Source: Brumimicrobium mesophilum (lineage in GTDB: Bacteria > Bacteroidota > Bacteroidia > Flavobacteriales_D > Crocinitomicaceae). Taken from it: a stretch of DNA of 64,000 nucleotides. The notes under the pieces are model-generated. The model was given only the letters and a program-made list of their open reading frames with translations, was not told the DNA's origin and made no database searches. The position numbers and the translations under genes were made by a program. The DNA lies in NCBI RefSeq assembly GCF_003025005.1, contig NZ_PVSS01000016.1, forward strand, positions 34,487 to 98,486. The letters are read 5' to 3'. This document shows, one piece after another, positions 1,496-22,880 of this stretch. Every line of letters begins with the position of its first letter. Position 1 is the stretch's first letter.

Positions 1496-1625
1496 AGTTT
1501 TCTGTTTTTTAAAGCTTCAAAAAAATAATTCCAAGATTTATTTTAATTCCAATAAAGGTAAGAATAATAATTTGTAACAATAATAAATAAGTTTTTCTAA
1601 GTTCGAATTTTTTATTGTTTTAAAC

Positions 1626-1674
1626 AAAAAAAAATGGTTAGAAATATAGTTTTTACCTTCTATATTTTTAACCA
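1626..1674 (-). terminator. Intrinsic terminator inside the polysaccharide locus
   Basis: Arms at 1660-1674 and 1635-1649 form a 15-bp stem with one G-T wobble-type position and a 10-base loop. On the minus strand the hairpin is followed directly by nine T residues (A run at 1626-1634). It lies after the LegC-type aminotransferase gene (stop near 1730) and before DegT copy 1 (start 1495), so it would split the otherwise co-directional locus. Readthrough would be needed unless DegT copy 1 has its own promoter; I saw no TAnnTTTG element for it. Confidence 0.7.
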
Positions 1675-1729
1675 CTTTATTTAAACGGAATTTTGATTCT
1701 GTTATTTATACATTGGAAATGTCAGTAAA

Positions 1730-2878
1730 TTAATTCCTAAAGAATTCTTTAATCGTTTCTACAACAGTTTCCAATTGTTCTCTTGTGATTCCAGCAGAGC
1801 TAGGAATACTTATACTATTCTCATAAACTGTTGAAGAAACATCTTTTTCATTAAAGTAGATATCATCCTTAAACATCGCCAATTGGTTCATAGGCATCCA
1901 AAATGGTCTTGATTGAACTCCGTTTTTATTTAGATATTCTAATAAATCACGCATGCGAGAAGTACTAAACGTAAATAGCCAACAGTTCGGATTTGTTCCT
2001 TCTGGAATTGCTTGGAATTTGATATCTCCAATACCTTCTAATTGTTCGCGGTAGAATGCATCCATTGCTTTCTTCGCTTCTAAAGTTTCATCGAAAGTTT
2101 CCATTTGCGCAACTCCAATTGCCGCCAATACATTTACCAAGCGATAATTGTAACCAATTTCGTCGTGGATGTAATCCATCGCACTCACTTTTGCTTGGGT
2201 TGTAAGGTGACGTGCTTGTTTAGCGATTTCTTCATCATTTGTAACAATCACACCACCTCCACCTGTGGAGATGATTTTATTCCCATTAAAACTGAAAACT
2301 CCGATTTCCCCAAAACTTCCTGAGTGTTTTCCATTATAAGTACTTCCTAATGCTTCAGTACTGTCTTCGATAATAGCTAAATGGTGTTTTTCGGCTATCT
2401 CTAGCATTCTATTCATATCACCAATATTACCAAGAACATGAACTGGCATTATAGCGCGAACTCTATTACCTGTAGACTTGTCAAAACTAAACGTACCATT
2501 ATTGGAAGTTTTAATTTCTGTGTTTTCTTGAAGATATTTCTCCAATAAGTTGAGGTCCATTTGCCAATTATCAGCGTCCACATCAATTAGAATCGGTTGC
2601 GCTCCAGTATATTTTATTGCATTCAGGGTTGCAATAAATGTAATGTTTGGTGCTATTACATGGTCATTTTCATTTACTCCTAGAAGTATTTGTGCGATGT
2701 GAAGTCCTACTGTACCATTCATGCAAGCCACACCATATTTGGCACCTGCATAATTAGCCACCATTTCTTCGAATTGGTTAACATAACTACCAGCTGAAGA
2801 AATCCAACCAGTTTGTAAACAATCAAGGACGTATTTCGATTCGTTTCCTTCGATTTTTGGAATTGATAATGGGATCAT
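1730..2878 (-). CDS. LegC-like DegT family aminotransferase
   Basis: A 382-residue PLP-dependent aminotransferase of the DegT/DnrJ/EryC1/StrS family. It is clearly different from the two 360-residue copies elsewhere in the locus. The PLP lysine is K201 in SFNGNKIISTGGGG, preceded by the EDSTEALGST segment (D172). The NGTVGLHIA and PVHVLGN motifs recall the LegC/PseC/perosamine-synthetase side of the family, which aminates UDP- or GDP-linked 4-keto sugars. No cognate 4,6-dehydratase other than rmlB is in the window, so the substrate stays open. It starts at an ATG and has 141 noncoding bases upstream containing a possible -7 element and a terminator just downstream, so it may form its own transcription unit. 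Confidence 0.85.
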   Translation of the reverse strand: MIPLSIPKIEGNESKYVLDCLQTGWISSAGSYVNQFEEMVANYAGAKYGVACMNGTVGLHIAQILLGVNENDHVIAPNITFIATLNAIKYTGAQPILIDVDADNWQMDLNLLEKYLQENTEIKTSNNGTFSFDKSTGNRVRAIMPVHVLGNIGDMNRMLEIAEKHHLAIIEDSTEALGSTYNGKHSGSFGEIGVFSFNGNKIISTGGGGVIVTNDEEIAKQARHLTTQAKVSAMDYIHDEIGYNYRLVNVLAAIGVAQMETFDETLEAKKAMDAFYREQLEGIGDIKFQAIPEGTNPNCWLFTFSTSRMRDLLEYLNKNGVQSRPFWMPMNQLAMFKDDIYFNEKDVSSTVYENSISIPSSAGITREQLETVVETIKEFFRN

Positions 2879-2940
2879 TTTTAGTTTATTAGTTTAATAT
2901 CTATTTATGCTGTTAATTAGCTGAGATCAGAGTAAAAGCT

Positions 2941-2948
2941 CAAATTTA
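2941..2948 (-). promoter_or_regulatory. Possible Bacteroidota -7 element upstream of the LegC-like gene
   Basis: On the minus strand this reads TAAATTTG, an exact match to the TAnnTTTG consensus of the Bacteroidota primary sigma factor. No clear TTTG -33 element is seen 19-20 bases upstream. A start of transcription near 2934 would give a leader of about 55 bases before the ATG at 2878. With the terminator at 1626-1674 it would define a one-gene unit. Chance matches are common in AT-rich DNA. Confidence 0.3.
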
Positions 2949-3019
2949 GCCCTTTTTCATCTGTTAAAGAGGTCGAAATTAGCTATTTTTTGTGAATCTA
3001 TTGAAAGGAATAGCATTGT

Positions 3020-3766
3020 TTACTTTTTGAATATTTTATAATACCATTTCTTGAGTACGGTTATATGATAGGCATTCATTAATTCTATGGAGTTTGAAGA
3101 AGGAAATGAAATTCTGTTTCTTTGACCATCTTTATATAGATAGTCTGCTGGGGCAGCAATAACATCTAATCCTTTATCCTTAAAAATTTCAATTGCTCTT
3201 GGCATATGAAGGGCACTAGTAACAAGGATTATTTTTTTATTTGTTCCAAAAGTGTCTTTAAAGGCGTTCGCTTCTTCAAGGGTTGTTGTTGGCGTTTCTA
3301 ACATTTTTACCTGCTTCTCATTTACGCCAAGCGAGATGGCAGCTTCTTTACTAAGCCTAGCTAAACTCTTGTCTCCTTCAGCTGAGTATGCCGAAGTTAC
3401 TAAAATTGAATTATTTAAATGTGTATAAACTCTTATTCCCTCAATTAATCGTTTTAAAGCTTCTGAACTAATATTCATTGTAGAGGGAAGCCTAGGATCT
3501 GTTGTGGAACCTGCTCCTAATACAAGTATATGATATACTTGTGAAGAATCAAGTTCACTAAATTCTATAGGGTTGTACTTGCTTTCAATGGAATTAATCA
3601 ATATTTTGGGTAAGTAAGTTGTAGAAGAAAGTAAGAATAAAACTATACCAGTTATAAGATATGCTTTAAAATATTTAAATGGTTTTTTTCGGTACCATAA
3701 TGCTATTGAACCCCAAGTTAGGAAATATAAACTTACGTCTGGAATACCCTTTAAAAAGTCAATCAC
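3020..3766 (-). CDS. YdcF/SanA-like DUF218 membrane protein
   Basis: A 248-residue protein with two hydrophobic N-terminal segments (about residues 8-24 and 34-52), followed by a DUF218 domain. Visible family signatures are ILVLGAGS, an SEALKRLIEG helix, ILVTSAYS, ANAFKD and IILVTSALHMPRA. DUF218 proteins (ElyC, SanA, YdcF) affect envelope integrity or bind nucleotide-like ligands, and their chemistry is poorly defined. The start codon is GTG at 3764-3766, only 11 bases after the stop of the sugar transferase gene; no in-frame ATG fits the domain better. Its place inside a surface-polysaccharide locus suggests a role in lipid-linked glycan metabolism (inference). Confidence 0.75.
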   Translation of the reverse strand: MIDFLKGIPDVSLYFLTWGSIALWYRKKPFKYFKAYLITGIVLFLLSSTTYLPKILINSIESKYNPIEFSELDSSQVYHILVLGAGSTTDPRLPSTMNISSEALKRLIEGIRVYTHLNNSILVTSAYSAEGDKSLARLSKEAAISLGVNEKQVKMLETPTTTLEEANAFKDTFGTNKKIILVTSALHMPRAIEIFKDKGLDVIAAPADYLYKDGQRNRISFPSSNSIELMNAYHITVLKKWYYKIFKK

Positions 3767-3777
3767 TTGTTTTGATT

Positions 3778-4503
3778 TTATAATTTACTCACTCCTGAAA
3801 CGGTCAAAGATGCTGGTTTTTTAGGTAAGTTTTTCAAGCTTCTAAAAACCAATTGAGAATCTTTATTTACGAGAGACCAAAAGGTCAAAAATAGAATTTT
3901 AAAATCTACTGTTATTGAGCAATTTTTATAATACCACTGCTCTAAAGCTCCTTTATAAGGGAAAATATACTTTCTGTAATATTCTTTCGGGTCTTTTCCT
4001 AAATCTCTGTATTTCGTAACCAGTAATTCTTCATCTCTAAAAATCAGTGAACCAATGCCAGTAATTCCAGGTCTGTTTTTATAAATTATAGATTGAACTT
4101 CTGGAGTATAATTTTGAAAACTTCTCAGTAATAAAGGTCTGGGTCCAACCAATGCCATATCACCTTTAATTACATTAAGAATTTGTGGTAATTCGTTGAT
4201 TTTAGTCATTCTTAAAAACTTACCCACTTTGGTTATTCTGGGATCATTTCTAACTGTTAGGGTTTTGTTTCCAATGTTTGCACTGTCTTTTAACATCGTA
4301 GCAAACTTGTATATGAAAAAAGGCTTATTTTTGCGACCTAAACGTTCTTGTAAATAGAAAACCTCGCCTTCTCCATTAAATTTAAGAAGGACAATAATAA
4401 CTAAAAATAAAGGTGAGATAACCAATAACCCTAATAAAGAGACTATGAAATCAAAAGATCTTTTGATGAAAGAATAGAAAATTGAATTCTTTTTGTTACT
4501 CAT
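3778..4503 (-). CDS. Small undecaprenyl-phosphate sugar-1-phosphate transferase (PglC/WcaJ catalytic domain)
   Basis: A 241-residue monotopic phosphoglycosyl transferase that would load the first sugar phosphate onto undecaprenyl phosphate at the inner membrane. It has the KRSFDFIVSLLGLL membrane helix (about residues 14-40), the LQERLGRKNKPF segment, DPRITKVGKFLR and LVGPRP (118-123). It lacks the N-terminal CoA-binding-like domain found in the 464-residue homologue at 50527-51921. The catalytic Asp-Glu pair reads Asn103-Glu104 (KINELPQ) here instead of Asp-Glu. A long C-terminal tail (about 60 residues) follows the core. It lies between the acpS and SanA-like genes in the same operon. Confidence 0.85.
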   Translation of the reverse strand: MSNKKNSIFYSFIKRSFDFIVSLLGLLVISPLFLVIIVLLKFNGEGEVFYLQERLGRKNKPFFIYKFATMLKDSANIGNKTLTVRNDPRITKVGKFLRMTKINELPQILNVIKGDMALVGPRPLLLRSFQNYTPEVQSIIYKNRPGITGIGSLIFRDEELLVTKYRDLGKDPKEYYRKYIFPYKGALEQWYYKNCSITVDFKILFLTFWSLVNKDSQLVFRSLKNLPKKPASLTVSGVSKL

Positions 4504-4544
4504 TTGTATGAAATTATTTTAACACTATAATTTTAAATTCGTCG

Positions 4545-4886
4545 CTAAATTAACACAATCGCAACAGCTGTGGCATAATCTTTAGCATGAGAAATACTTA
4601 TTTTTATTGATTCACAATTTATACTTTCACTTTTAAAGTTCGCATAAGGAGCACCTGATGATTTATGCGCGATTGTTATATCCTTAATAAAAATCTCTTC
4701 AATTGAGAATGTTGCCTTAACTACTGCTTCCTTAGCACACCAAATACCAGTTAGAGTTTGAGATGGGTTGGCTTTGGAAATTGCATATTCCCACTCAGAT
4801 GAATTGAACATTTTTTGAAGTAGTCTGTTTTTATGATCAAATAATTTTTTGAATCTTGATATATGTTCTATGTCGATGCCTATCAT
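4545..4886 (-). CDS. acpS: Holo-ACP synthase (4'-phosphopantetheinyl transferase)
   Basis: A 113-residue AcpS-type enzyme, normal length for the trimeric group. It transfers 4'-phosphopantetheine from CoA to the serine of an acyl carrier protein. Mg-binding residues are D5 in MIGIDIE and E53 in WCAKEAVVKA, and the SISHAKDYA motif is near the C terminus (97-105). It sits in the acyl-chain module of the polysaccharide locus, about 3.4 kb downstream of an ACP gene, so it probably activates that ACP. It could also be the only AcpS of the genome; that cannot be told from this window. Confidence 0.85.
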   Translation of the reverse strand: MIGIDIEHISRFKKLFDHKNRLLQKMFNSSEWEYAISKANPSQTLTGIWCAKEAVVKATFSIEEIFIKDITIAHKSSGAPYANFKSESINCESIKISISHAKDYATAVAIVLI

Positions 4887-4935
4887 ATATGTATTGAATA
4901 GTTCATATTATAAAAACGCTCTATCTATATTAAAA

Positions 4936-5568
4936 TTAGAACTCAACAACCTTGGCAGGTGATCCAAAAACCGTTGTGTTTTTTTTAACTTTTCTGATAA
5001 TTAGACTTCCCATTCCAATTGTTGAGGAATCTTCAGCAATTGCCCCTTGAATAAATTTGGAGTGAGCACCAACTAAAACCATTTCTTTAACTTCAGATTT
5101 TCCAGCAAAAAAGGAAAAAGAGTTGATTTGAGAGTATTTACCAATTCTAACATCGTGCCCCATAATTACAGAGCTTTGTATAAATGCGTAGTCCTCAATA
5201 ATTGCATCACTAGCTATTACACAATAGGCCTTAATACCAATACCAGTTCCCAACTTAACACTTGGAGAAATTACAGTATTTGGATGGATTAGATTGATAA
5301 ATTCGCCTCCTTTTTCAAGAATCATTTTAACGCATTTCTTTCTTATTTTGACGTTGCCAATACCACAGAAAAATACATCTCCTTTTTCTATTTTATAATC
5401 AGTTATCGTATTAATTATTGGAGCATAACCATCAAATTCAATCTTATCTTCTTTTTCGCTTATGAATCCTTTTAAATTAAAATCTTCATCATTACCGTAG
5501 CAATATTTAGCTAAATCGTAAATTTCTCTAGCAAAGGCACCACCACCTAATATTATCAAATTTCTCAT
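4936..5568 (-). CDS. NeuD/PglD-like sugar N-acyltransferase
   Basis: A 210-residue protein with an N-terminal Rossmann-like part (LIILGGGAFAREIYD, residues 4-18) and a C-terminal left-handed beta-helix of hexapeptide repeats (about 95-200), the layout of NeuD, PglD, VioB and Per acetyltransferases. H138 in IMGHDVRIG matches the catalytic histidine of PglD-like enzymes, which acylate the 4-amino group of nucleotide-linked 4-amino-4,6-dideoxy sugars. The gene is in an operon with KASIII, ACP and SDR genes, so the donor may be an acyl-ACP (or acyl-CoA) made by them rather than acetyl-CoA. That donor is inference; the fold call is firm. Confidence 0.8.
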   Translation of the reverse strand: MRNLIILGGGAFAREIYDLAKYCYGNDEDFNLKGFISEKEDKIEFDGYAPIINTITDYKIEKGDVFFCGIGNVKIRKKCVKMILEKGGEFINLIHPNTVISPSVKLGTGIGIKAYCVIASDAIIEDYAFIQSSVIMGHDVRIGKYSQINSFSFFAGKSEVKEMVLVGAHSKFIQGAIAEDSSTIGMGSLIIRKVKKNTTVFGSPAKVVEF

Positions 5569-5629
5569 CGTATTATTTGAAACTAATTTTGTTTTTTCTA
5601 ATCAAGCCCCATTTTTGGCTTGAATTAAA

Positions 5630-6379
5630 TTACTTAATAGAGTATCCTCCGTCAATAGTTAATAAACTACCTGTTGTCCAAGTGGAAGCATCTGACATTA
5701 AATATATTACTCCGTTTGCTATGTCTTCTGGTTTACCAAATCTACCCATTGGATAATTATTTAGATGCTCCTTTATAGAATCTTGATCTATTCCACTATT
5801 CTCTAAAATACTTGTTTGAATAAAACCGGGAAGGATTGCATTCACACGTATTTGTTTTGAAGACAATTCCAAAGCTAAAGACTTAGTGAATGAATTTACT
5901 GCTCCTTTTGAAGCAGAATATAATGAATTACCAAGGTTAACATAGTTTGAAGCTACTGAGGAAATAAAACAAATTGAAGCTCCTTTTTTTATCTTTTTTT
6001 TACGAAGTAATTTCTGAATTAGAACTACCGAAGAAGTAAAATTAACGTCAAAAACCTCTTGAATTTGTTCTTTTTTAATGAATGCTACGGGTACAGTTTT
6101 TACAATACCAGCATTTAAAACAATTCCATCCAATAGTGGTAATCTATCTACAAGCTTTTCAATATCTTCATTACTTTTTAGATCTGCAACTATGAACTGA
6201 TTATTAGAATTTGTTTTAAGATCATTAAAAGTATCTTCTAATCTTTGACTGTTTCGTCCAGTAATTATCATATTAGCATCCATATTTGAACAACTAAAAG
6301 CTATTTCTTTTCCAATTCCAGCAGACGAACCAGTCACAAAAATGGATTTATCTTTAAGTGTAAAAGGATTTATACTCAT
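5630..6379 (-). CDS. SDR family oxidoreductase, FabG-like, 1
   Basis: A 249-residue classical short-chain dehydrogenase/reductase. The cofactor motif TGSSAGIG is at 16-23, NAGI at about 89-92, and the catalytic set is S141, Y154 and K158 (LYSASKGA). Size and motifs match 3-oxoacyl-ACP reductases, which reduce 3-oxoacyl-ACP to 3-hydroxyacyl-ACP with NADPH. It is 34 bases from a second SDR gene and in the same operon as two KASIII genes and an ACP, which supports an acyl-chain role. A sugar ketoreductase is the alternative. Confidence 0.82.
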   Translation of the reverse strand: MSINPFTLKDKSIFVTGSSAGIGKEIAFSCSNMDANMIITGRNSQRLEDTFNDLKTNSNNQFIVADLKSNEDIEKLVDRLPLLDGIVLNAGIVKTVPVAFIKKEQIQEVFDVNFTSSVVLIQKLLRKKKIKKGASICFISSVASNYVNLGNSLYSASKGAVNSFTKSLALELSSKQIRVNAILPGFIQTSILENSGIDQDSIKEHLNNYPMGRFGKPEDIANGVIYLMSDASTWTTGSLLTIDGGYSIK

Positions 6380-6413
6380 TAAAATAGTCGTTTAATTTTA
6401 TTTATAGATAATT

Positions 6414-7193
6414 CTATCTGGAAGTATAACCTCCATCAATAATATAGTTTTGGCCAGTTATCCATTTGGATGAATCTGACAATAGGAAAATACAAAGATT
6501 CGAAACGTCTTTAGGTTCTCCTAACCCCAAAGGAAAACCTTCCTGTCTTTTTAATTTCTCCTCATCATTTAGTGAATCAAGATATTTTACCATCATTGGA
6601 GTTAAGATAGTACCTGGAGAAATACAATTTACTGTAATGTTTTTTGGAGCCAGTTCAAGAGCCATAGATTTGGCACCAGCTAATAAAGCTCCTTTAGACG
6701 CAGCATAACTTACAACTCCTGGTCTACCTATAACAGCTGTAATTGAGGAAATAAATACAAAACTACTGTGGTCTGCGACATTTTTCTTTTTAGAAACAAT
6801 TTTGGCTAATTCAAATCCGCTGATGACATTTAGTTTGTACATATCAGCATAATCAGACTCTTTTAATGCTCTAATAGGTAGGGTTTTCTCAATACCAGCA
6901 GCATGAACTAACCCGTTAATTTTACCAACTTTTTGAACAGCATCACTAATTATACTTGATAATTGATCTATATTATCTAATAAATCAAGACTATACTTTA
7001 GATGTTTATCCCTTGTGTTTTCCTTTGAATGTTTGTTTAATTCATCATAAACTTCCGAAAGCCTGTCGTTGTTTCTACCAAGAATTATAAGTGTAGCACC
7101 CATCTTGGCACATTCTATTGCACAATCTCTTCCTAAACCAGAAGACGCTCCTGTGATAACTATGTTTTTATTGATTAGGTTAAATCTGTCCAT
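6414..7193 (-). CDS. SDR family oxidoreductase, FabG-like, 2
   Basis: A 259-residue classical SDR. The cofactor motif TGASSGLG is at 14-21, HAAGIE at 97-102, and the catalytic residues are S150, Y163 and K167 (SYAASKGAL). The C terminus ends in the common IDGGYTSR-type tail. It is a clear but diverged paralogue of the neighbouring SDR, so the two may reduce different 3-oxo intermediates. Its ATG (7191-7193) abuts the stop of the upstream KASIII gene, which argues for coupled expression and joint function. Confidence 0.82.
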   Translation of the reverse strand: MDRFNLINKNIVITGASSGLGRDCAIECAKMGATLIILGRNNDRLSEVYDELNKHSKENTRDKHLKYSLDLLDNIDQLSSIISDAVQKVGKINGLVHAAGIEKTLPIRALKESDYADMYKLNVISGFELAKIVSKKKNVADHSSFVFISSITAVIGRPGVVSYAASKGALLAGAKSMALELAPKNITVNCISPGTILTPMMVKYLDSLNDEEKLKRQEGFPLGLGEPKDVSNLCIFLLSDSSKWITGQNYIIDGGYTSR

Positions 7194-8252
7194 CTATATT
7201 TCTATTAAGTTAGAACATACGATTTTATCTGTTTCAAAGTAAACTGAAGCCCAAGAAAGGCCACTACCAAAACCACAAGCAATTAAATTCAACTTCTTTT
7301 CAGAGAGTTGAGTTCTAATTTTATGAACCATAGTTAAAGGAATGGATGCACATGAAGTGTTTCCAAAGCTTTCATATGAAGTAGGAACTCTATCTTCTTC
7401 GAATTTTACTTTTTTACTCACTTTATCTACAATCATTTTATTGGCTTGATGCAGAATTAGATAGTCGATATTTTCATTTTCTAATCCATTTTCCTTCATT
7501 AATTTTGCTATACTTTTTGGTATAGCAGAAATAGTAAAGGTAAATACTGCTGCTCCGTCCATTATGTATTGCAATTTATTTCTTACAATTCCCTCATCAA
7601 TTTTTATTGTCTCTAAAGATTGAAGATTTGTTGGATTTCTAAAACCTCCATCAGGTATATGAATAGCTTCAAATTTAGATCCATCAGTTCCTGAATGAAT
7701 CTTAAAGCCAACACCTCCTTGATCGAATTCAATTGCTGTTGCTGAACCTGCATCTCCGAAAAGTGGATAAGTAGATCTGTCCGTTTTTGATTTCGTTTTA
7801 GTTGTTGTTTCACCTACCAGCAATAGTGCTTTCTTGAAATTACCAGTTGAAACTAGGGAACCCATTATTGATAATCCATAAGTCCAAGCAGAACAACCTA
7901 GAGAGATGTCAAAAGCATGACATTCTTTAGACAAACCTAACCTGTGTTGTAATACACATGATGTGGCCGGAACGACATAATCAGGTGTTTGGGTAATAAA
8001 TATTAAACAATCTATTTCCTCTTTATTCCAATTTAAATTAGCAATTAAATCTTCGGCAGCGTGGAAACAAAGGTCAGCACTTGTGATTTCACTTGATGAT
8101 ACTCTTTTTTCAATTATTCCAGTACTTTTTATGAATTTTTCTGCATCTTCTCTATTCGTAAAGGCTATAGATTCAATATTTTTTTCAATATTCTTAGGCA
8201 CACATGCCGTGATACCAGAAATTTTAACGTTTGGAATTGTTTGAAAAGCCAT
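7194..8252 (-). CDS. 3-oxoacyl-ACP synthase III (KASIII/FabH-like), 1
   Basis: A 352-residue thiolase-fold condensing enzyme. The full FabH triad is visible: C120 in LGCSAW, H268 in LHQANK and N298 in FGNTSC. KASIII enzymes start chains by condensing acyl-CoA with malonyl-ACP. It is about 25 residues longer than typical housekeeping FabH, as is common for KASIII proteins of polysaccharide and secondary-metabolite loci. It shares the MAFQ start and most motifs with the second KASIII at 8533-9594, so the pair arose by duplication. It is followed without a gap by an SDR gene. Confidence 0.87.
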   Translation of the reverse strand: MAFQTIPNVKISGITACVPKNIEKNIESIAFTNREDAEKFIKSTGIIEKRVSSSEITSADLCFHAAEDLIANLNWNKEEIDCLIFITQTPDYVVPATSCVLQHRLGLSKECHAFDISLGCSAWTYGLSIMGSLVSTGNFKKALLLVGETTTKTKSKTDRSTYPLFGDAGSATAIEFDQGGVGFKIHSGTDGSKFEAIHIPDGGFRNPTNLQSLETIKIDEGIVRNKLQYIMDGAAVFTFTISAIPKSIAKLMKENGLENENIDYLILHQANKMIVDKVSKKVKFEEDRVPTSYESFGNTSCASIPLTMVHKIRTQLSEKKLNLIACGFGSGLSWASVYFETDKIVCSNLIEI

Positions 8253-8278
8253 AACTGCTTGTATTTAATTTTTGAAAA

Positions 8279-8509
8279 TTACTTAGATAAACGTGCTTTT
8301 ACTTCATCTAATAGTTCACCAACTGTCTCGATCTTTTTGAATTCATCAGTATCAATGATAATTTCATATTCTTCGTCTAGCATGGCAATTGTTGATAAAA
8401 AAGCTAAAGAATCCCACTCTTCATATTCTCTAAACTTATCGCTTAAGTTCATTTCTTGCTCTTCCTTTTCTAATACTTCCTTGAATAATTCAATAAATTT
8501 TGATTCCAT
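8279..8509 (-). CDS. Acyl carrier protein
   Basis: An acidic 76-residue protein when started at the ATG at 8507-8509. A longer reading to 8557 would run into the upstream KASIII gene and add a tail unlike ACPs, so I chose the internal start, which leaves a 23-base spacer. The phosphopantetheine site is S34 in EEWDSLAFL, followed by the acidic recognition helix with MLDEEYE. It lies between two KASIII genes, so it is a dedicated carrier for chains made by this module. The AcpS at 4545-4886 is the probable activating enzyme. Confidence 0.87.
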   Translation of the reverse strand: MESKFIELFKEVLEKEEQEMNLSDKFREYEEWDSLAFLSTIAMLDEEYEIIIDTDEFKKIETVGELLDEVKARLSK

Positions 8510-8532
8510 ATTTTTGTTTTTATGTTGTTGTT

Positions 8533-9594
8533 TTAAATCATAATCACTTTCGGGCACACTATGTCAGTGGTTTCAAAATAAATTGAACCCCATGATAGTC
8601 CTACACCAAAAGCGCATGTCATTATCTTTAATTTTTCATTTTTGACTTGTTCAGATAACCTTGATACAATTGTTAAAGGTATTGATGAACAAGATGTATT
8701 TCCATACTCGTTTAATGAATAAGGAACTTTTTCGCTAGGAATTTTAAGTTTTCTTACAATTTTTTCCAGCATAAATTTATTCGCTTGGTGAAATACAAAC
8801 TGGTCAACTTCATCCAAGTTAATATTATATTCCTTCGCTAAACCCATTACACTTCTAGGAGCTTTGGTAATTCCAAAAGTAAAAACTGCAGCGCCATCCA
8901 TAAATGTTTGAAGTCTGTTTCTTTTATTACCATCTTCATCTACAGAGTAGGTTTCAGAATCTTTAGAATAAAAATTTCTAAAACCGCCATCTGGAATAAT
9001 TATGGCTTCATGGCCTTTTCCATCCGTAGAAGTATGCACCTTAATTCCATCGGCTCCATTAACATATTCAATGGCTGTGGCAGTACCTGCATCTCCAAAT
9101 AAAGGATACGAACTTTTATCGTAAGGAGACTTAGTCATCGTTGAAGTATCTCCAACTAATAAAATCCCTTTTTTAAAACCACCATTTTGAATTAATCCAG
9201 CAATGGTTGCCATTCCATGAATCCATCCTGAACATCCCAATGAGATATCAAGTGTGAAACAATCATTTGAAAGGCCTAATTTATTTTGTAATATGCATGA
9301 TGTTGCTGGGAAAATATAATCTCCTGTTTGAGAGACAAATATAAGACAGTCAATTTCTGATTTATCCCAATTTAATTCTTCAATTAACTTTTCAGCGGAA
9401 GCCAGGCACATATCAGAAGTTCTAATGGAAGTTCCAGTTACAGTATGACGTTGCTTTATTCCAGTCGATTTTATAAAATTCTTAATTTGATCAGGATTAC
9501 CTAAAAGTTCAAGATTTTCATTAGACTCTATGTTTTTAGGTACACAGGCTGCAAAACCTTGTATTTTTATATTTTTGAAGTGTTGAAAGGCCAT
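8533..9594 (-). CDS. 3-oxoacyl-ACP synthase III (KASIII/FabH-like), 2
   Basis: A 353-residue KASIII with the intact triad C121 (LGCSGW), H269 (FHQANK) and N299 (YGNTSC). It is a paralogue of the KASIII at 7194-8252, and the ACP gene lies between them. Having two full-length active-looking KASIII enzymes beside one ACP suggests different acyl primers, for example acetyl-CoA for one and a 3-hydroxybutyryl unit for the other (inference). It begins the acyl module; 145 noncoding bases separate it from the upstream GT4 gene. Confidence 0.87.
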   Translation of the reverse strand: MAFQHFKNIKIQGFAACVPKNIESNENLELLGNPDQIKNFIKSTGIKQRHTVTGTSIRTSDMCLASAEKLIEELNWDKSEIDCLIFVSQTGDYIFPATSCILQNKLGLSNDCFTLDISLGCSGWIHGMATIAGLIQNGGFKKGILLVGDTSTMTKSPYDKSSYPLFGDAGTATAIEYVNGADGIKVHTSTDGKGHEAIIIPDGGFRNFYSKDSETYSVDEDGNKRNRLQTFMDGAAVFTFGITKAPRSVMGLAKEYNINLDEVDQFVFHQANKFMLEKIVRKLKIPSEKVPYSLNEYGNTSCSSIPLTIVSRLSEQVKNEKLKIMTCAFGVGLSWGSIYFETTDIVCPKVIMI

Positions 9595-12924: not shown

Positions 12925-14040
12925 TTATTGATTGGCATTATAAAAATCCGAAATGGTTGGACTATCCATAAATTCAATTTCAGGCCATTTTTTAAGCATT
13001 TTAGTCAATAGAAGCTTAAGGTCCTCTAGATTTTTATTTCTTTGATTAATGTCTAATCTTCCACAGAAATTTATTCTATGTGTACCAATTATTGCTGGTT
13101 TCCCCCATTTGAAAGCAATTGCTATACTTTCCATACATTTTTCAACCCAATCAATGTTTGCATTAATGCTAGGTTCGAATAAACTATTACGAACAAAATA
13201 AAGTTGTCCTAATTTATTCTTTTGTCCTGAATAAGGATATCTCTTTTTGAACGCCGCTCCAGGTGATGGAATGTTTTGTTGGTAAGAACTCTGTAGACCT
13301 TGAACATTTTCTGCAAGGAAAGTTTTTTCCACATGTTCATCCCAAACATAACATGGCGCTACAGTTGTCTTTGATTTGATTCCAAATATTTCTTCAAACT
13401 GCTTGAGTCCCTCTCTTATGCTCCTTTTTACATAATCGAGTTCAGAATCGTTTTCATAATCATAGGCAGCCATTAAATTTCCTCTTCTATTTTGAGCGCT
13501 TTTTTCGTCAATAGAAAAACATCCTCTTTCGAATGCAAAATGATAGCGTTGATCACCGGCTTTAAGAAAATCCATCCATCGCACAACATTTAGGTGTTCT
13601 TTGCCATGAAACTGAGGAGTAATTAAATTCTGATTAATTCCACTTTTCAATGTTTCAAAAGCATTTTCACTTCCTGGGTAACTTAGATATGTTTTGTAAA
13701 AAGGTTCACTATGGTACTCTTCAAAATTAGTTTCTTTTATTGTATTGAAGTCCGGGTTATTTAAAATGATATTGGCCGTAATTACAGGATTATTTCCATT
13801 TTTGTCTTTAAAACTTTTAAGAACATCAAACAGAGATGTGAAATCATCAGATGTCTCTAAAGTATCGAATTTTGAAAAGGCATCTTTAGATCTTATCAAT
13901 CCCTCTTCTAATAATTCTTGCTTTATAGTATCGTTTGGTATTCTGATGGATCCCCAATCATCGGATTCAAAGACAACAATTTTTTTATTGATTCTACTAC
14001 CACGAAGATTAATGAGGTGTTTCTTTACAGTTTGTTTCAT
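12925..14040 (-). CDS. Polysaccharide deacetylase-like protein A
   Basis: A 371-residue protein without signal peptide. It starts with KKIVVFESDDWGS (E25, D27, D28), which resembles motif 1 of NodB-type deacetylases where paired Asp residues act in catalysis and metal binding. It then has PQFHGKEHL (H145, H149), a possible metal-binding His pair, and AFKWGKPAIIGTHRINF near residue 320. These patterns are shared with the next gene, so the two are tandem paralogues. Homologues sit in polysaccharide loci of this phylum and are usually left unnamed. The deacetylase link is inference from the motifs; the true reaction is not established. Confidence 0.55.
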   Translation of the reverse strand: MKQTVKKHLINLRGSRINKKIVVFESDDWGSIRIPNDTIKQELLEEGLIRSKDAFSKFDTLETSDDFTSLFDVLKSFKDKNGNNPVITANIILNNPDFNTIKETNFEEYHSEPFYKTYLSYPGSENAFETLKSGINQNLITPQFHGKEHLNVVRWMDFLKAGDQRYHFAFERGCFSIDEKSAQNRRGNLMAAYDYENDSELDYVKRSIREGLKQFEEIFGIKSKTTVAPCYVWDEHVEKTFLAENVQGLQSSYQQNIPSPGAAFKKRYPYSGQKNKLGQLYFVRNSLFEPSINANIDWVEKCMESIAIAFKWGKPAIIGTHRINFCGRLDINQRNKNLEDLKLLLTKMLKKWPEIEFMDSPTISDFYNANQ

Positions 14041-14052
14041 TATCCTTTTCGG

Positions 14053-15159
14053 TTACTTATCTTCAAGTAATGTTTTTGCCAATTGTTCACTATTCATAAA
14101 TTCAACTTCTGGCCATTTTTTAATTATTGTGGTCAACATGTTGTTTAAATCATTTAATGTTCTATCTCTCAAATCAGTTGTAATTCTGCTTGTGTAATTA
14201 ATTCTATGGCTATTAATAACAGCAGGTTTTCCCCAACGAAAGGCAATTTCAATCTCTTTTAAACATTTGTCTACATAATCTGAGTTTTTGCTTCTACCTG
14301 GTTCAAAAGTACAGTTACGTCTCCAAAATACTATCCCATTTTTAGTTTTATCTCCCCATAAATGATTCTTTTTCTTGAGTTTCATGTCTTCTGGGTAAAA
14401 CTGCTGACCAGCTTGAATTGCTAATACTCCATTGTTCTTCAATACATCAAAAAGATGATTTCCGTAAACTGATTGCGAAGGACAAAATGATATAGAATTG
14501 AATCCAAAAATTTCTTTAAATTCTTTTAATCCTTCGGCAGTTCTTTTTTCAATTAACTTTTTGTCACTTTCATTATGATATTCGAAAGCAGCGAGGAAAT
14601 TTTTCTCTCTCGTAAAATTATCAACTCCAAATACAGAGTCGTGGTTAAATCCAACATGTTCTAAATCATTCGAATCTTTCACTCTTTTGAAATATCTTTC
14701 AGGAAATAGATGTTCTTTACCATGAAATTGGGGATACAATAAATTGTTTTTTATTCCCTCTTCCTTCCAAAAACTCAATAGATCAGTTTCATCATATCGA
14801 TCATAAGTTTCTTTAATTGTTTCAGAATGATAATTGTCGGTCTCTCTTATTTTCTTAAAATCTGGGTTTGATGTTAAAGATAATGCCGTAACAACAGGTG
14901 GTTTACCTTTAGAATCCTTGTGTTTAGTTAGCATTTCAAATAAGCTTTCTAAATCTCTTTTTCGTTCTAAACCATCATAAACCAGATATCTATGTTTGGT
15001 AATTTGTGGATATTTTTCATGTAATTCATTGTATACACTCTGATCCGCCATTCTAACACTTCCCCAATCATCTGATTCTATAACTACTATTTTTCTTTTG
15101 GTTGACCAACCGCGGAAGTTTATATAGTTTTTTGCTGTTTTTTCTTTTAACGAGAGCAT
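14053..15159 (-). CDS. Polysaccharide deacetylase-like protein B
   Basis: A 368-residue tandem paralogue of the protein encoded 13 bases downstream. The same three signatures recur: IVVIESDDWGS (E28, D30, D31), PQFHGKEHL (H146, H150) and AFRWGKPAVINSHRINY. Between them the two proteins differ a lot, so the duplication is old and the substrates may differ. No signal peptide or membrane helix is seen, so it should act in the cytoplasm, perhaps on a nucleotide sugar or lipid-linked glycan (inference). Confidence 0.55.
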   Translation of the reverse strand: MLSLKEKTAKNYINFRGWSTKRKIVVIESDDWGSVRMADQSVYNELHEKYPQITKHRYLVYDGLERKRDLESLFEMLTKHKDSKGKPPVVTALSLTSNPDFKKIRETDNYHSETIKETYDRYDETDLLSFWKEEGIKNNLLYPQFHGKEHLFPERYFKRVKDSNDLEHVGFNHDSVFGVDNFTREKNFLAAFEYHNESDKKLIEKRTAEGLKEFKEIFGFNSISFCPSQSVYGNHLFDVLKNNGVLAIQAGQQFYPEDMKLKKKNHLWGDKTKNGIVFWRRNCTFEPGRSKNSDYVDKCLKEIEIAFRWGKPAVINSHRINYTSRITTDLRDRTLNDLNNMLTTIIKKWPEVEFMNSEQLAKTLLEDK

Positions 15160-15406: not shown

Positions 15407-16342
15407 TTATCTATCTATTAATGTGTTGTTTAGAATACTGTATGCTTCAGAAGCGATCATTCTGGAGTACAGTTGAGCTCCTTGTTTGTTTAGATGAAGC
15501 TCATCATTAAACATTGATTTATCACTTAAGAATCTTTGATCTTGCAGATGATTTAATACTTGAATATCATTTTTTTTAGCAAGTTCTATTAAAGGCTTGT
15601 ACAAATTTTCTGGGGTGATCTTAAAATATGGAGACACTGTGAAAACAAATTTAATGTTATTTGTTTTGGCTTTATCAATAAACTTTTGAAGGGTTTCTAT
15701 TTTTTTTTCGTCCACAGCCAACTTTTCGGCATCTAAAGAATCAATAGTTTTATTCCAATTTCCTGTAAGAACTCTAAATCCTTGTTTGTTATCGCGACCT
15801 TGAATTAAATTTCCTGTTAAAATCTTAAAGCTTTTGGAGCTATATTTATATAAATTAGAATTTAATTTAAAAACCTCCTTTTCTCCAGTTAACGATAAAA
15901 GTGAGTCAAATTCTGGTGAAACTGAATGGTAAAATGGAGCATGTTCTTTCAGTGCATCTACGCCAAAGATTCCTTCCCCAACATAAATATCCCTGTAATC
16001 AATATCTAGGAAAATAACTTTTGGCGTATATCTTTCTAATGTACTGAGTAAAACGCCATAGTGATAATAAATACCTGTTCCTTCTCTCCCACAATTATAT
16101 GTTGAAATTCCTAAAGTGTCTTTTAATATTGCAGGTATATAATGATAGGCAGCCCTAGAAGATCCAAAAATCAATAATTCTTGGCTGGTTTTATTCATAA
16201 TATAGTTTTCTTGAAATGCAACTCCTGATTTAGCCGTTTTATATAATTTTCCAAAAACTATACCTGAAGCATAATCAACGCAAAAGACTATTGCAATAAA
16301 TAGAAAAACCTTATACAGAAATTTTTTGTTTAGTTTTTTCAT
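15407..16342 (-). CDS. SGNH-hydrolase-like protein paired with MBOAT acyltransferase
   Basis: A 311-residue protein with one N-terminal membrane helix (about residues 10-28), then an extracytoplasmic SGNH-type domain. Visible blocks are LLIFGSSRAAYHY (nucleophile Ser in GSS), YNCGREGTG, VIFLDIDYRDI and, near the C terminus, the Asp-x-x-His-like NDELHLNKQGAQLY. The family includes DltD- and AlgJ/PatB-like partners that move acyl groups delivered by an MBOAT protein onto a polymer. It is two bases from the MBOAT gene, so the two very likely work together in O-acylation of the surface glycan. Confidence 0.75.
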   Translation of the reverse strand: MKKLNKKFLYKVFLFIAIVFCVDYASGIVFGKLYKTAKSGVAFQENYIMNKTSQELLIFGSSRAAYHYIPAILKDTLGISTYNCGREGTGIYYHYGVLLSTLERYTPKVIFLDIDYRDIYVGEGIFGVDALKEHAPFYHSVSPEFDSLLSLTGEKEVFKLNSNLYKYSSKSFKILTGNLIQGRDNKQGFRVLTGNWNKTIDSLDAEKLAVDEKKIETLQKFIDKAKTNNIKFVFTVSPYFKITPENLYKPLIELAKKNDIQVLNHLQDQRFLSDKSMFNDELHLNKQGAQLYSRMIASEAYSILNNTLIDR

Positions 16343-16344
16343 AT

Positions 16345-17760
16345 CTAAAATTGGAAGTAAATAAACTTATCTGAGTCGAAAACGCCCAACAAAATAATTA
16401 TACAAAGCAATAATGCCATGGAGAATACTCTAACATATAAATTCTTATTGTTGAGTAATTCAAACTTTTTGGGATAGAATTCATCCGTAAATTCTTTGAA
16501 AAACAAAATCATCATAGATACTGCTGCAATAAAGAATATATCCCATTTAATAAATAATTGAGAACCAAAATCAGTAAATATTCTAGTGATAATTTCCCAA
16601 GCTTCAGTTAAACTACTAGCTCTAAAAAATATCCAAGCTAAATCAACAAGAATAAAAGTAATTACGATATTGATTAAAACATTAAAGGATAATTTGTTCT
16701 TTTCTTTCTTTCTACCTAAACCCAATGCTTTCTCAATAACGATATATAGGCCGTGTAAAGCACCCCAAATTATAAAAGTGAAATTTGCGCCATGCCAGAT
16801 ACCGCTTACAAAAAAAGTTAGAAATAAATTGAAATAAGTTCTCGCTTTTGATTTTCTATTTCCTCCTAATGGGATATATAAATAATCCTTGAACCAAGTT
16901 GATAATGAAATATGCCACCTACTCCAAAATGTGGTAATGCTTGTTGCATAATAAGGTCGTCTAAAATTGGTCATGAGTGTAAAACTCATCATCTTCGAAA
17001 CACCAATAGCTATCAATGAATACCCTGCAAAATCTCCATAAATTTGAAAAGCAAAAAGAAATGAAGCCAAGGCATGAGTAGTTCCACCGTGATTTTCTAC
17101 ATTATTAAAAGCGGCATCTACATACATACCTAAATTGTCTGCTAATACAATTTTTAGAAAAAAGCCCCATAAAACCATTTTAAAACCTGCTGATAGATTT
17201 GCAGCAGTAAGTTTTTTCTCTTCCCTAAATTGAGGTAATAGATTTCCTGAGCGCTCAATTGGACCAGCAACTAATTGAGGGAAAAATGTAACAAACATTG
17301 CGTAGATACCAATGTGTTTTTCAGACTTTATATCTTTTCGGTATACATCTATTGTGTATCCAACTGCTTGGAAAGTGTAAAATGAAATCCCCACTGGTAG
17401 AAGTATATCTAGGTTCGGAACTTCCCATCTCATATTAAAATACTCTAGAGTGGAAAAAACTGTTTCATTAATGAAATTATAATACTTGAATATAAACAGG
17501 ATTCCGAAATTTGCAAGAATACTAATGGTTAGGTAGGTTTTACGCCTGAGGACATTGTTCGTCTTATCAAGTAAATAACCGCACGTCCATGTACTTAAAA
17601 TCGAGAAACTTATTAATAACGCATAAACTGGCTCCCAATTCATGTAGAAAAAGTAACTAGCTATTAACAAAAATATCCATCTAAATCGATGTGGCAGCAA
17701 AAAATAAATCAGCACCACCGTCGGAAAGAAGATTAAGAAAATTAATGAGTTAAAAAGCAT
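16345..17760 (-). CDS. MBOAT family O-acyltransferase (AlgI/DltB-like)
   Basis: A 471-residue polytopic membrane protein with about ten hydrophobic segments. It has family signatures FPQLVAGPIERSGNLLPQF, FAGYSLIAIGVSKMM, TTFWSRWHISLSTWFKDYLYIPLGG and the catalytic-His region SGIWHGANFTFIIWG. MBOAT proteins carry an acyl group, usually acetyl, across the inner membrane for O-acylation of alginate, teichoic acid or other polymers. It is the first gene of the pair with the SGNH protein and has a 409-base AT-rich gap before it. Confidence 0.92.
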   Translation of the reverse strand: MLFNSLIFLIFFPTVVLIYFLLPHRFRWIFLLIASYFFYMNWEPVYALLISFSILSTWTCGYLLDKTNNVLRRKTYLTISILANFGILFIFKYYNFINETVFSTLEYFNMRWEVPNLDILLPVGISFYTFQAVGYTIDVYRKDIKSEKHIGIYAMFVTFFPQLVAGPIERSGNLLPQFREEKKLTAANLSAGFKMVLWGFFLKIVLADNLGMYVDAAFNNVENHGGTTHALASFLFAFQIYGDFAGYSLIAIGVSKMMSFTLMTNFRRPYYATSITTFWSRWHISLSTWFKDYLYIPLGGNRKSKARTYFNLFLTFFVSGIWHGANFTFIIWGALHGLYIVIEKALGLGRKKEKNKLSFNVLINIVITFILVDLAWIFFRASSLTEAWEIITRIFTDFGSQLFIKWDIFFIAAVSMMILFFKEFTDEFYPKKFELLNNKNLYVRVFSMALLLCIIILLGVFDSDKFIYFQF

Positions 17761-20621: not shown

Positions 20622-22880
20622 TTAATGATTTAAAAGATTTTTTATGGAATGATGGAAATTTTCACAGTTATATCTTCCGGAATATATTTGGAGATTCTTT
20701 TGATTTTTATTGGATTCTACTTCAGTTAGTTTTAAGTTGTTGTTTTCTATGTCTTTAACGAAGTCATCAATTGTAAATACAACAAAACCCTCTTCCTTTA
20801 AAGTTTTATAGGTGATGTTTTTCTCATTTAAATATAACTTTGTATTTCTTTTTAGTGCCTCCCATAGATTTCCGAGGGCCATTTGCCTTCTTCCATTCAT
20901 AACAAATGCATCTGCTTCTTCATATATTTCATTGAATTTATCTAAATTCATAAAATCTTCAATTACTTCAACCTCCTTTATTTCAGCAGCTCTACTTCTA
21001 ACTGTTTCAGTATAGTGGTCCTTGTAACCATAATTATACAACATTAAGAATTTGTAATTGCCTTTCTTTTTCGATTGATCGATATAATCAAGAATGTCTA
21101 AATGGTTATTGTACGCACTTCTGTTATTCCCTAAAATGATTTTGTTACTAACTACAGGTGTGTAACTGCTTGAGGATTTTATAGTTGGTATTCCAATTTG
21201 CATAAATGGTGGTAGTTCATTCCATTTACTTTTCAAAAACGCATATTCATCTTTGAACACGCCCAAAAATATATCCGCACGCTCAAATGCAGCTTTCTTT
21301 ATTTCTGTTTTTACTTTAGCACGATACTTTACTTGAATGGAGGTAAATCTTATCCATTTTTTTGTTTTCAATATAAACCCATCTTTCTTTTCACCACTTA
21401 GAATAGGTTGGGTTTTTTCTGAAAAAACGAATTCAGGGATTAAATTATACAATTCAGAACCAAAAAACCTCCATATTACTTTAACTGATTTAGGTAGTCG
21501 ATTGGCAATATAACTTTTTTGAAAATTTAAACCATATAACACAACAATATCGCTTGATTTACATAATTGAATTATTTTTTTAAATTCATTTCGGGTATAT
21601 TCGAAATATTGTATTTGATCTTTATAAGGACCTTGGTAAGTATTGTTTTGACCCAATACAATTAATTTATTGTCAAACTTTTTATTATTGAATATTCCAA
21701 CTCCATTTATGAATTTTACATCGGTATGGACATGATAGATTGTTAATTTCTTATCTAAAATATCAAATAGTGTATTATGAAAATTTTGTTTATTGTACTT
21801 CTCAGTGAACTTAATCATTTGGTCTTGATTACTGTTCGCTTGTTCTTTAGAAAGGGAAATATTATTGTTTTCTAGATCTGATGTGAAATTTTCTACTGAA
21901 GAAATGTAAAAACCTTCTTCTATTAACCATTGATATACTAAATTATGTTTGTTTAAGTATATTTTAGTGTTTTCTTTAATAGCCGTCCAAATATTTCCCA
22001 TGGCCATTTGTCTTAAACCATTTAGAACGAATGCGCTAGAATCTGAATATACTTTTTGGAAATCTTCATAGGGTAGAAAATTTTCCACAACCTCAATTTC
22101 CTTAATTTTTTTGGCTTGTTTTTTTATTGAACTGGTGTAAAAATTATCTTGTCCATAATTATAAAACATTAAGAATTTAAATTTCTCTTTAAATGGAGAA
22201 TTCTGAATTTGATCAATTATGTCGCTATGATTGTTGTATGCACTTTTGTTGTTCCCTATTATTATGGTATTGCTTTTAGTATTTCTAAATTCTTTAGCTT
22301 TTAGATATGGTCTATAACTAACTTGGAAAAATTCGGGTAGTTCAGGATATATGTTTTTTAAGTATAAATGTTCATTTTTTGAAAGTCCTAAAAAATAATC
22401 AATTCGTTTAAAAGCTGCTTTTTCAAATTCTTTATTAGGACTTGCCATGTATTTTATGCTGACCAAATAATTTATTATTTTGTTTTTAAAATTATAAAAG
22501 TTGCCATTTTTCTTTTGTTTATCCAGAATGCTATTAGTCCTTTCTGAGTAAACTAGTTCTGGTTTTCTACTGTATAGTTCTGAGCCGAAAAATCGCCAAG
22601 CTATTTTAACAGACTTATGTAATCTATTTGCGATATAACTTTTAGGGAAATTCAAATTGTGCATTACTACCATATCTGCATTATTACAGATACTTATGAT
22701 TTTGTTAAATTCAGATTTTGAAGAGTTGAAGTACTTTACAGATTCACTTAGTTCTCCGTTATAACTGTCTTTTAGACCAATAATAAATATACTGTTTTCA
22801 AATTGTTCCCCATAAAATCGATAAGATTCATTTATGAATTTGGTATCTGAATGTATATGAACTATTTTGAATTTTTTCAT
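20622..22880 (-). CDS. Double-domain GT56-like (WecF-type) glycosyltransferase
   Basis: A 752-residue protein built of two homologous halves with a constant offset of 375 residues. The first runs from KKFKIVHIHSDTKFIN (residue 2) and the second from KKLTIYHVHTDVKFIN (residue 377). Each half has WRFFGSELY (95-103 and 470-478), GNNxSAYNNH (209-218 and 584-593), FLMxYNYG and NGxRQMAxGNxWxAxKxNTKxYLN. The GN..S..NNH and YNYG blocks resemble WecF, the GT56 enzyme that moves Fuc4NAc from its dTDP donor onto a lipid-linked acceptor. Single-domain members are about 360 residues, so this is a tandem fusion. Given rmlA/rmlB and the DegT genes, it may add one or two dTDP-4-amino-sugar-derived residues (inference). 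Confidence 0.6.
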   Translation of the reverse strand: MKKFKIVHIHSDTKFINESYRFYGEQFENSIFIIGLKDSYNGELSESVKYFNSSKSEFNKIISICNNADMVVMHNLNFPKSYIANRLHKSVKIAWRFFGSELYSRKPELVYSERTNSILDKQKKNGNFYNFKNKIINYLVSIKYMASPNKEFEKAAFKRIDYFLGLSKNEHLYLKNIYPELPEFFQVSYRPYLKAKEFRNTKSNTIIIGNNKSAYNNHSDIIDQIQNSPFKEKFKFLMFYNYGQDNFYTSSIKKQAKKIKEIEVVENFLPYEDFQKVYSDSSAFVLNGLRQMAMGNIWTAIKENTKIYLNKHNLVYQWLIEEGFYISSVENFTSDLENNNISLSKEQANSNQDQMIKFTEKYNKQNFHNTLFDILDKKLTIYHVHTDVKFINGVGIFNNKKFDNKLIVLGQNNTYQGPYKDQIQYFEYTRNEFKKIIQLCKSSDIVVLYGLNFQKSYIANRLPKSVKVIWRFFGSELYNLIPEFVFSEKTQPILSGEKKDGFILKTKKWIRFTSIQVKYRAKVKTEIKKAAFERADIFLGVFKDEYAFLKSKWNELPPFMQIGIPTIKSSSSYTPVVSNKIILGNNRSAYNNHLDILDYIDQSKKKGNYKFLMLYNYGYKDHYTETVRSRAAEIKEVEVIEDFMNLDKFNEIYEEADAFVMNGRRQMALGNLWEALKRNTKLYLNEKNITYKTLKEEGFVVFTIDDFVKDIENNNLKLTEVESNKNQKNLQIYSGRYNCENFHHSIKNLLNH

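Follow-up and report, generated by a model that had tools for sequence, protein, structure and literature searches.

In Brumimicrobium mesophilum (assembly GCF_003025005.1, contig NZ_PVSS01000016.1, positions 34,487 to 98,486), a stretch of 64,000 nucleotides, referred to as the window throughout, carries a run of seven genes on the minus strand, from 9594 to 4545, which is termed the module here. They encode two 3-ketoacyl-acyl carrier protein synthases of the KASIII type (KASIII-A and KASIII-B; KAS in general), an acyl carrier protein (ACP), two short-chain dehydrogenases/reductases (SDR1 and SDR2), a PglD/NeuD-type acyltransferase and an AcpS-type holo-ACP synthase. We consider it probable that the module builds a short hydroxyacyl group, most likely 3,5-dihydroxyhexanoyl, on its own ACP. 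The acceptor would be the 4-amino group of a nucleotide-linked sugar destined for a surface polysaccharide, likely UDP-Qui2NAc4N. The starting points are direct observations: the gene content, the gene order, the intact motifs and the recurrence of the gene set in other genomes.

The seven genes are all open and contiguous, with intergenic gaps of -25 to 61 bases, and a Pfam search backs the family of each of the seven proteins (Table 1). Coordinates, frames and Pfam matches thus agree with an earlier sequence-only reading of the window, which had placed the seven genes contiguously on one strand inside a polysaccharide locus; the surroundings indeed contain genes for glycosyltransferases, Polysacc_synt and EpsG-type proteins, and RmlA/RmlB. 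The catalytic residues that it had described are also present. The Cys-His-Asn triad is found in both synthases (GCSG/HQAN/GNTS in KASIII-A and GCSA/HQAN/GNTS in KASIII-B), and Ser-Tyr-Lys in both reductases (YAASK and YSASK, with FISS), which both carry adh_short. The two synthases are 52% identical to each other, and the two reductases 35%. Neither synthase reaches the cut-off of the FabH model TIGR00747 (182.1 and 214.4 bits; cut-off 292.1), and neither reductase that of the FabG model TIGR01830 (154.4 and 166 bits; cut-off 297.75). Judged by these scores, the former are KASIII-like proteins below the threshold for FabH proper, and the latter are ketoreductase-like proteins below the FabG threshold. 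It should be noted that PF13561 ("enoyl-ACP reductase"), which both reductases match, is a broad SDR model. Their top NCBIfam model is a generic SDR one ("glucose 1-dehydrogenase"), followed by FabG and related reductase models, all below cut-off. No acyl dehydratase family was found in the 28 window genes scanned (413 to 32174), in agreement with the sequence-only reading. The ACP is one of two PF00550 matches in the genome. Its probable start codon is the ATG at 8509, the GTG at 8557 being less likely, because the ACP of the closest locus found, L019 (Flavobacterium sp. JAD_PAG50586_2), aligns with it from that methionine onward. The genome also holds another FabH-like protein, whose neighborhood reads plsX-rpmF (gene names assigned by eye).

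Table 1. Genes of the module and associated genes in the window.
Feature	Position	Strand	Evidence
KASIII-A (353 aa), predicted acetyl-priming condensing enzyme	8533..9594	-	PF08545/PF08541; Cys-His-Asn motifs
Dedicated ACP (76 aa from ATG)	8279..8509	-	PF00550, 36.5 bits; DSL serine
KASIII-B (352 aa), predicted second-round condensing enzyme	7194..8252	-	PF08545/PF08541; triad motifs
SDR1, predicted 3-ketoacyl-ACP reductase	6414..7193	-	PF13561/PF00106/KR; Ser-Tyr-Lys
SDR2, predicted second 3-ketoacyl-ACP reductase	5630..6379	-	PF13561/PF00106/KR; Ser-Tyr-Lys
PglD/NeuD-type sugar 4-N-acyltransferase (210 aa)	4936..5568	-	PglD_N + Hexapep
AcpS-type holo-ACP synthase (113 aa), predicted phosphopantetheine loader of module ACP	4545..4886	-	PF01648, 69.9 bits
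PglC-type sugar-1-phosphate transferase, associated	3778..4503	-	PF02397; 41 bases past AcpS
DUF218/ElyC-like protein, associated	3020..3766	-	PF02698
LegC/PglE-type 4-aminotransferase, predicted maker of acceptor 4-amino sugar	1730..2878	-	TIGR04181, 454 bits (cut-off 420)

A published precedent is available in Flavobacterium psychrophilum, to which the sequence-only reading had rightly pointed. According to the passages of Cisar et al. (2019; PMC6519341) on which we draw, nuclear magnetic resonance (NMR) data place a 3,5-dihydroxyhexanoyl group on Qui2NAc4N in its glycan, and the genes wfpC-G are assigned to the acyl group: wfpC and wfpE encode KAS, wfpD an ACP, wfpF a ketoreductase (KR) and wfpG a PglD homologue. 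The proposed route resembles type II fatty acid synthesis, its proposed product being 3,5-dihydroxyhexanoyl, and the locus also holds PglC-, PglE- and PglF-type genes; these passages contain no enzyme assay of the route. A review gives the F. psychrophilum group as (3S,5S), and in the sections used here also records 3,5-dihydroxyhexanoyl in Vibrio cholerae O3, with undetermined configuration (PMC3210612). The gene-set comparison that the sequence-only reading had proposed finds neighboring KAS, ACP, KAS, KR and PglD genes in the window, plus one further SDR and AcpS. The sets were matched by description, and no F. psychrophilum-named record is among the matches listed in the searches with window proteins. 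The words phosphopantethein, holo-ACP and AcpS have no match in the main text of PMC6519341. The acyl-synthase route itself is not new, since a matching set of genes had led to the same proposal in the 2019 paper. New are the AcpS, the double reductase, which is common to the window and L019, and the pairing of two synthases of the same lineage, which is common to L019, a locus denoted L006 and others. Beyond the sequence-only reading, we find that the module is widespread, that L019 has a near-identical gene order and that AcpS is the odd gene.

Two other systems bear a partial resemblance to the window. The logic of 4-aminotransferase, 4-N-acyltransferase and sugar-1-phosphate transferase is that of PglF-PglE-PglD-PglC in Campylobacter jejuni, which PMC6519341 also cites. 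The C. jejuni PglD is an acetyltransferase, and to our knowledge the bacillosamine pathway there involves no ACP, KAS or KR. Group II of the Aeromonas polar flagellin glycosylation islands resembles the module in that its glycan genes include those for an ACP and a 3-oxoacyl-ACP reductase, but the passages of its description used here list an AMP-dependent synthetase and LuxE/LuxC, mention no KASIII and concern a pseudaminic acid context (PMC7874193).

In the proposed mechanism, AcpS would convert the module ACP to holo-ACP, and malonyl would be loaded onto it by the housekeeping malonyl transferase. KASIII-A would then condense acetyl-CoA with malonyl-ACP, and one SDR would reduce acetoacetyl-ACP to 3-hydroxybutyryl-ACP, to which KASIII-B would add a second C2 unit, followed by a second reduction by an SDR; both hydroxyls would stay, because no acyl dehydratase is found in the scanned locus. 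The PglD-type enzyme would N-acylate the amino sugar supplied by the LegC/PglE-type aminotransferase, and the PglC-type enzyme would transfer the sugar to the lipid carrier. The dihydroxyhexanoyl product is a prediction for B. mesophilum. FabG-type reduction yields 3R-hydroxyacyl-ACP, and therefore an S,S acyl group argues for dedicated reductases.

The spread of the gene set was surveyed by scanning genome contigs with a 17-sequence alignment (KASIII-B and relatives), from which the best 79 of at least 570 loci were taken, called the named loci here; neighbors were called with profiles made from the window proteins, and contig ends cut some loci. The record titles are mostly of Bacteroidota, with exceptions including Chlorobiaceae, Planctomycetaceae and Methylotenera. 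Within 3 kb of the KAS gene, an ACP is found in 78 of the 79 loci, an SDR in 66 and a second KAS in 56. The core of ACP, two KAS and SDR is present in 55 loci, 32 of which also have PglD, while 11 loci combine ACP and SDR with one KAS and another 11 have an ACP without SDR or second KAS. Within 8 kb, PglC occurs in 24 loci and a LegC-type gene in 30. The gene association is not due to chance, as dozens of genomes share the core and 32 of the named loci combine it with PglD. Nineteen plasmid records match KASIII-A, all below 60% identity.

The order of genes in L019 is the same as in the window, KAS-ACP-KAS-SDR-SDR-PglD-PglC-aminotransferase. The identities to the window proteins are 76% for KASIII-A, 65% for the ACP, 64 and 76% for pieces of KASIII-B, 67% for SDR1, 66% for a piece of SDR2 and 64% for PglD; the second KAS and the second SDR of L019 are broken by frame changes, and their identities come from open pieces. 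The L019 aminotransferase is followed by a 650-aa frame, read as PglF-like by eye. Unlike the window, L019 has no AcpS match, and no frame fitting DUF218 lies between its PglC and aminotransferase genes. SDR1 groups with SDRs of L019 and L006, and SDR2 pairs with L019_13205 in a large group that holds most other loci's single SDR. Different arrangements were also observed: four Bacteroidales loci (L054, L066, L080 and L082) have the order KAS-SDR-SDR-ACP-KAS, in which the last KAS and the last SDR form separate, divergent groups, and L054 has an additional KAS and SDR in front.

Could the module perform one round of elongation only? The two KASIII would then act jointly or on different primers to give 3-hydroxybutyryl-ACP, and the sugar would carry 3-hydroxybutyryl, which we hold to be unlikely. 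Such groups are known, in (S) form, from bacillosamine-type sugars of Pseudoalteromonas and Plesiomonas O1, as noted in the sections of the review used here (PMC3210612), and both window KAS belong to the lineage carried by most single-KAS loci, as the counts below show. In a FastTree tree of 138 rows, 42 of the 51 two-KAS loci pair a lineage X or Y with a main lineage, eight are main+main only (the window, L033, L013, L077, L066, L054, L082 and L080) and one is of another kind; the idea that a same-lineage pair is unique to the window was thus rejected. A full-length module KAS row occurs singly in 29 loci, some of which are truncated at contig ends or have a fragmented second KAS; this row is main, the lineage of the two window KAS, in 28 of them and Y in L021. 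In an IQ-TREE tree of 97 rows, the same lineages form supported groups, with 24 rows in X, 15 in Y and 57 in main; the last includes the two window KAS, those of L019 and those of the second module of L006. For that tree 42 of the 138 rows were dropped, including rows of six of the eight main+main loci, and one L019 piece was added, and the pair counts were not taken from it. On the other hand, both window synthases keep full triad motifs, which a silent partner would not need, and F. psychrophilum, described with two KAS, makes a C6 group (PMC6519341, from the passages cited above).

Two rounds, as preferred here, would involve a division of labor between the synthases. The residue before the PAT motif, which presumably gates the acyl pocket of FabH, is Phe in KASIII-A, as in the genome's own FabH and five aligned FabH structures, and Val in KASIII-B. 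This suggests that KASIII-A may prime with acetyl-CoA while KASIII-B takes 3-hydroxybutyryl.

The identity of the acceptor sugar is approached through the genes around the module. UDP-Qui2NAc4N is favored because the aminotransferase belongs to the LegC family above cut-off, a PglC-type gene is adjacent and the NeuB match is weak. The last point concerns the only PF03102 (NeuB/LegI) match, which scores 29.2 bits (cut-off 22.1) over positions 53-238 of 241 and falls in a frame of 335 aa on a different contig; it is weak for a true NeuB, and legionaminic acid was accordingly disfavored as the acceptor route. A further candidate is a dTDP-linked amino sugar made by RmlA, RmlB and a DesI-like aminotransferase, to which the same synthase would deliver its product. 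Such genes lie in the same window, including two DegT aminotransferases (413-1495 and 23287-24369; 72% identical to each other and 22 kb apart), both nearest the DesI-like model (dTDP-4-dehydro-6-deoxyglucose aminotransferase), below cut-off. In addition, the closest solved structures of the window PglD are PerB and VioB, followed by PglD-type acetyltransferases, and PerB and VioB act on other nucleotide-linked 4-amino-4,6-dideoxyhexoses. However, PglC-type and LegC/PglE-type genes come after the module, and the 64% identical PglD of L019 adjoins PglC-type and aminotransferase genes and the PglF-like frame, so that we give the dTDP-sugar only a small probability. The polysaccharide locus extends into the left flank of the window, L085. 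There, positions 1601-5156 encode another PglC-type transferase and another PglD-type protein together with a PF02719 protein, which suggests a second amino-sugar branch of the region. About 20 kb from the module, the same contig encodes a PF02719 protein of 403 aa.

Several observations weigh against the assignment of the module to 3,5-dihydroxyhexanoyl on Qui2NAc4N. The acceptor is uncertain, because RmlA, RmlB, two DesI-like aminotransferases and the second PglD-type and PglC-type genes are all present. The strongest PF02719 match of the genome, a protein of PglF size, is located off-locus on contig C34. In L019, the PglC and aminotransferase are each only 35% identical to those of the window, and the similarity stops at PglD. 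F. psychrophilum is described with one KR (PMC6519341, same passages), and therefore the product does not demand two SDRs. Little weight can be given to the priming argument, because most module KAS lack the Phe before the PAT motif, which is found in 4 of 95 module KAS rows. The PglD-type protein, which retains the active-site-type conserved His, narrowly misses the cut-off of TIGR03570 (155.3 bits against 160.8), and no residue marking ACP-linked PglDs was found in a comparison of 37 module PglDs with 25 controls. The absence of a second conserved His, considered as a possible mark of PglDs that use ACP, gave no signal, as this His is kept in 10 of the 37 module PglDs and 10 of the 25 controls; the flanks of the controls are short, L132 and L085_4521 represent one gene, and L147 has an ACP-like match.

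The occurrence of the same acyl core without PglD belongs to the same side of the balance. A strong KASIII-A match was found in 17 of 240 family genomes (E <= 1e-80), own genome included, and in 29 of 395 sampled class genomes (E <= 1e-90). The 44 non-own loci of these family and class lists (L190-L233) were fetched with wider flanks where contigs allowed. Among them, 43 have an ACP, 37 an SDR, 35 a second KAS and 33 the combination of ACP, two KAS and SDR; on the KAS strand nearby, there is no PglD, no PglC and one LegC-type gene. Instead, a family 2 glycosyltransferase (GT2) and a GNAT-like protein are each present in 38 of the 44 loci, and an Asp/Asn-hydroxylase of the LpxO/OlsC kind in 14, these families being read on one or two representatives. 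Accordingly, the core alone is not proof of a PglD-sugar product. The GT2/GNAT operon of other Bacteroidota shares the four-gene acyl core with the window, with GT2 and GNAT replacing PglD, PglC and the aminotransferase; neither a name nor a function was found for it, and it may make a hydroxyacyl group and attach it to a lipid-linked sugar. Examples of the order KAS-ACP-KAS-SDR-GT2-GNAT are L207 (4839-10327) and L191 (5567-10279), where the GT2 is nearest the ArnC/PgfS models, below cut-off. Relatives of both proteins occur in 20 of the 79 named loci. Seven loci (L025, L029, L032, L051, L060, L073 and L081) have ACP-KAS pairs with no SDR or second KAS found nearby, and all carry GT2 and GNAT relatives.

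These loci raise the alternative that the acyl product in the window is used by an enzyme other than PglD, for a lipid, a lipid-linked sugar or a small molecule. The company of GT2, GNAT and the hydroxylase without PglD speaks for it, whereas the window PglD lies inside the gene run, the GT2 and GNAT profiles have no match in the window, and 32 of the named loci combine the core with PglD; we regard it as very unlikely. Since the 44 loci lack PglD and the window lacks a GT2/GNAT match, there are at least two settings in which the acyl core works, and the window represents the one with PglD. ACP-based synthesis of a hydroxyacyl group for a 4-amino sugar, as in the sequence-only reading, is the best reading of the module; the occurrence of the core without PglD speaks against a strict link between synthase and sugar decoration.

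AcpS is the gene that sets the window apart. The protein has the motifs GIDxxxI, WxxKEAxxK and SISH, in line with GxDxxxI, WxxKEAxxK and SxSH, which we take to be those of the AcpS family. It scores 73.5 against TIGR00556, over the cut-off of 45.35, and 57.5 bits against TIGR00516, narrowly under the cut-off of 59.8. PF01648 has three matches in the genome, of which the module protein, with 113 aa, is the only one of AcpS length; the others are an Sfp-size protein of 208 aa near FabH and a 215-aa frame located 2.5 kb from another KASIII-type match. In this last neighborhood (C1:83366-86301), where the phosphopantetheinyl transferase is of Sfp size, PF00550 finds nothing. With the window AcpS as query, the own genome alone was matched among 240 family genomes (E <= 1e-6) and among 399 genomes of an order sample (E <= 1e-5), and 12 of 395 class genomes were matched, the 11 non-own ones at 30-34% identity; the three samples are not disjoint, and distant AcpS may escape a query with one sequence. 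Relatives at 61-83% identity form at least 45 clusters, two of which bear the names Flavobacterium sp. and Gelidibacter mesophilus. AcpS was rejected as a usual member of the module, as a profile of 120 AcpS homologues found none in the 79 named loci at E <= 0.1. Nor was an AcpS-type gene found in the 44 wider family and class loci, where the single match, in L193, is a 182-aa Sfp-size protein. In the window's family, Sfp-size phosphopantetheinyl transferases lie near ACP-KAS genes in L193 (5880-7841), which additionally has DegT, GT2 and KpsM-like genes, and in L199 (10387-10941). With these 2 of 44 loci, a phosphopantetheinyl transferase in such a setting is rare, not unique. A remote AcpS at L118 adjoins unrelated genes. 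No report of AcpS in an O-antigen acyl module was found in the open-licence literature searched; a term search of PMC5601056 likewise gave no match, and PMC5552943 proved unrelated. From its position, the window AcpS is predicted to serve the module ACP.

KASIII-A has no match at E <= 1e-80 in the nine other genomes of the genus, and this absence, together with the distant best matches, would fit horizontal acquisition. The guanine-plus-cytosine content was discarded as evidence of import, being 0.285-0.342 throughout the window and about 0.32 in the module, which is uninformative. More speculatively, the module may be a transferable, self-contained cassette, in which the imported AcpS would activate only the cassette ACP, the housekeeping ACP being Sfp-served, so that the cassette would be separate from fatty acid synthesis and work on arrival; the two reductases would set the two stereocenters independently and might yield a diastereomer that would be new to bacterial glycans. 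We offer this extension as a possibility with the odds against it.

The wider locus contains, besides the glycosyltransferase, Polysacc_synt, EpsG-type, RmlA and RmlB genes mentioned above, those for a UDP-sugar dehydrogenase, an MBOAT protein and a NusG-like protein. The DUF218/ElyC-like gene adjoins the LegC-type aminotransferase, and a 33% identical relative is near a similar module in L006 (at 13448). The NusG-like protein (32356-32814), ahead of the long minus-strand locus, is possibly a locus-specific antiterminator, and the MBOAT protein with the directly following 311-aa protein without a Pfam match (15407-17760) possibly an O-acetylation pair. Adjacent proteins of 371 and 368 aa (12925-14040 and 14053-15159) and a 752-aa protein within the locus (20622-22880) have no Pfam match at E 0.001.

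If the reading is true, sugar N-acyl groups of this sort would commonly be made by dedicated mini type II synthases in Bacteroidota, and a genome might reveal which acyl side chain an antigen bears, by the number of KAS and KR genes and the kind of transferase. The AcpS-bearing variant in B. mesophilum would make two matters testable, namely the private activation of an ACP, and which KASIII primes and which extends.

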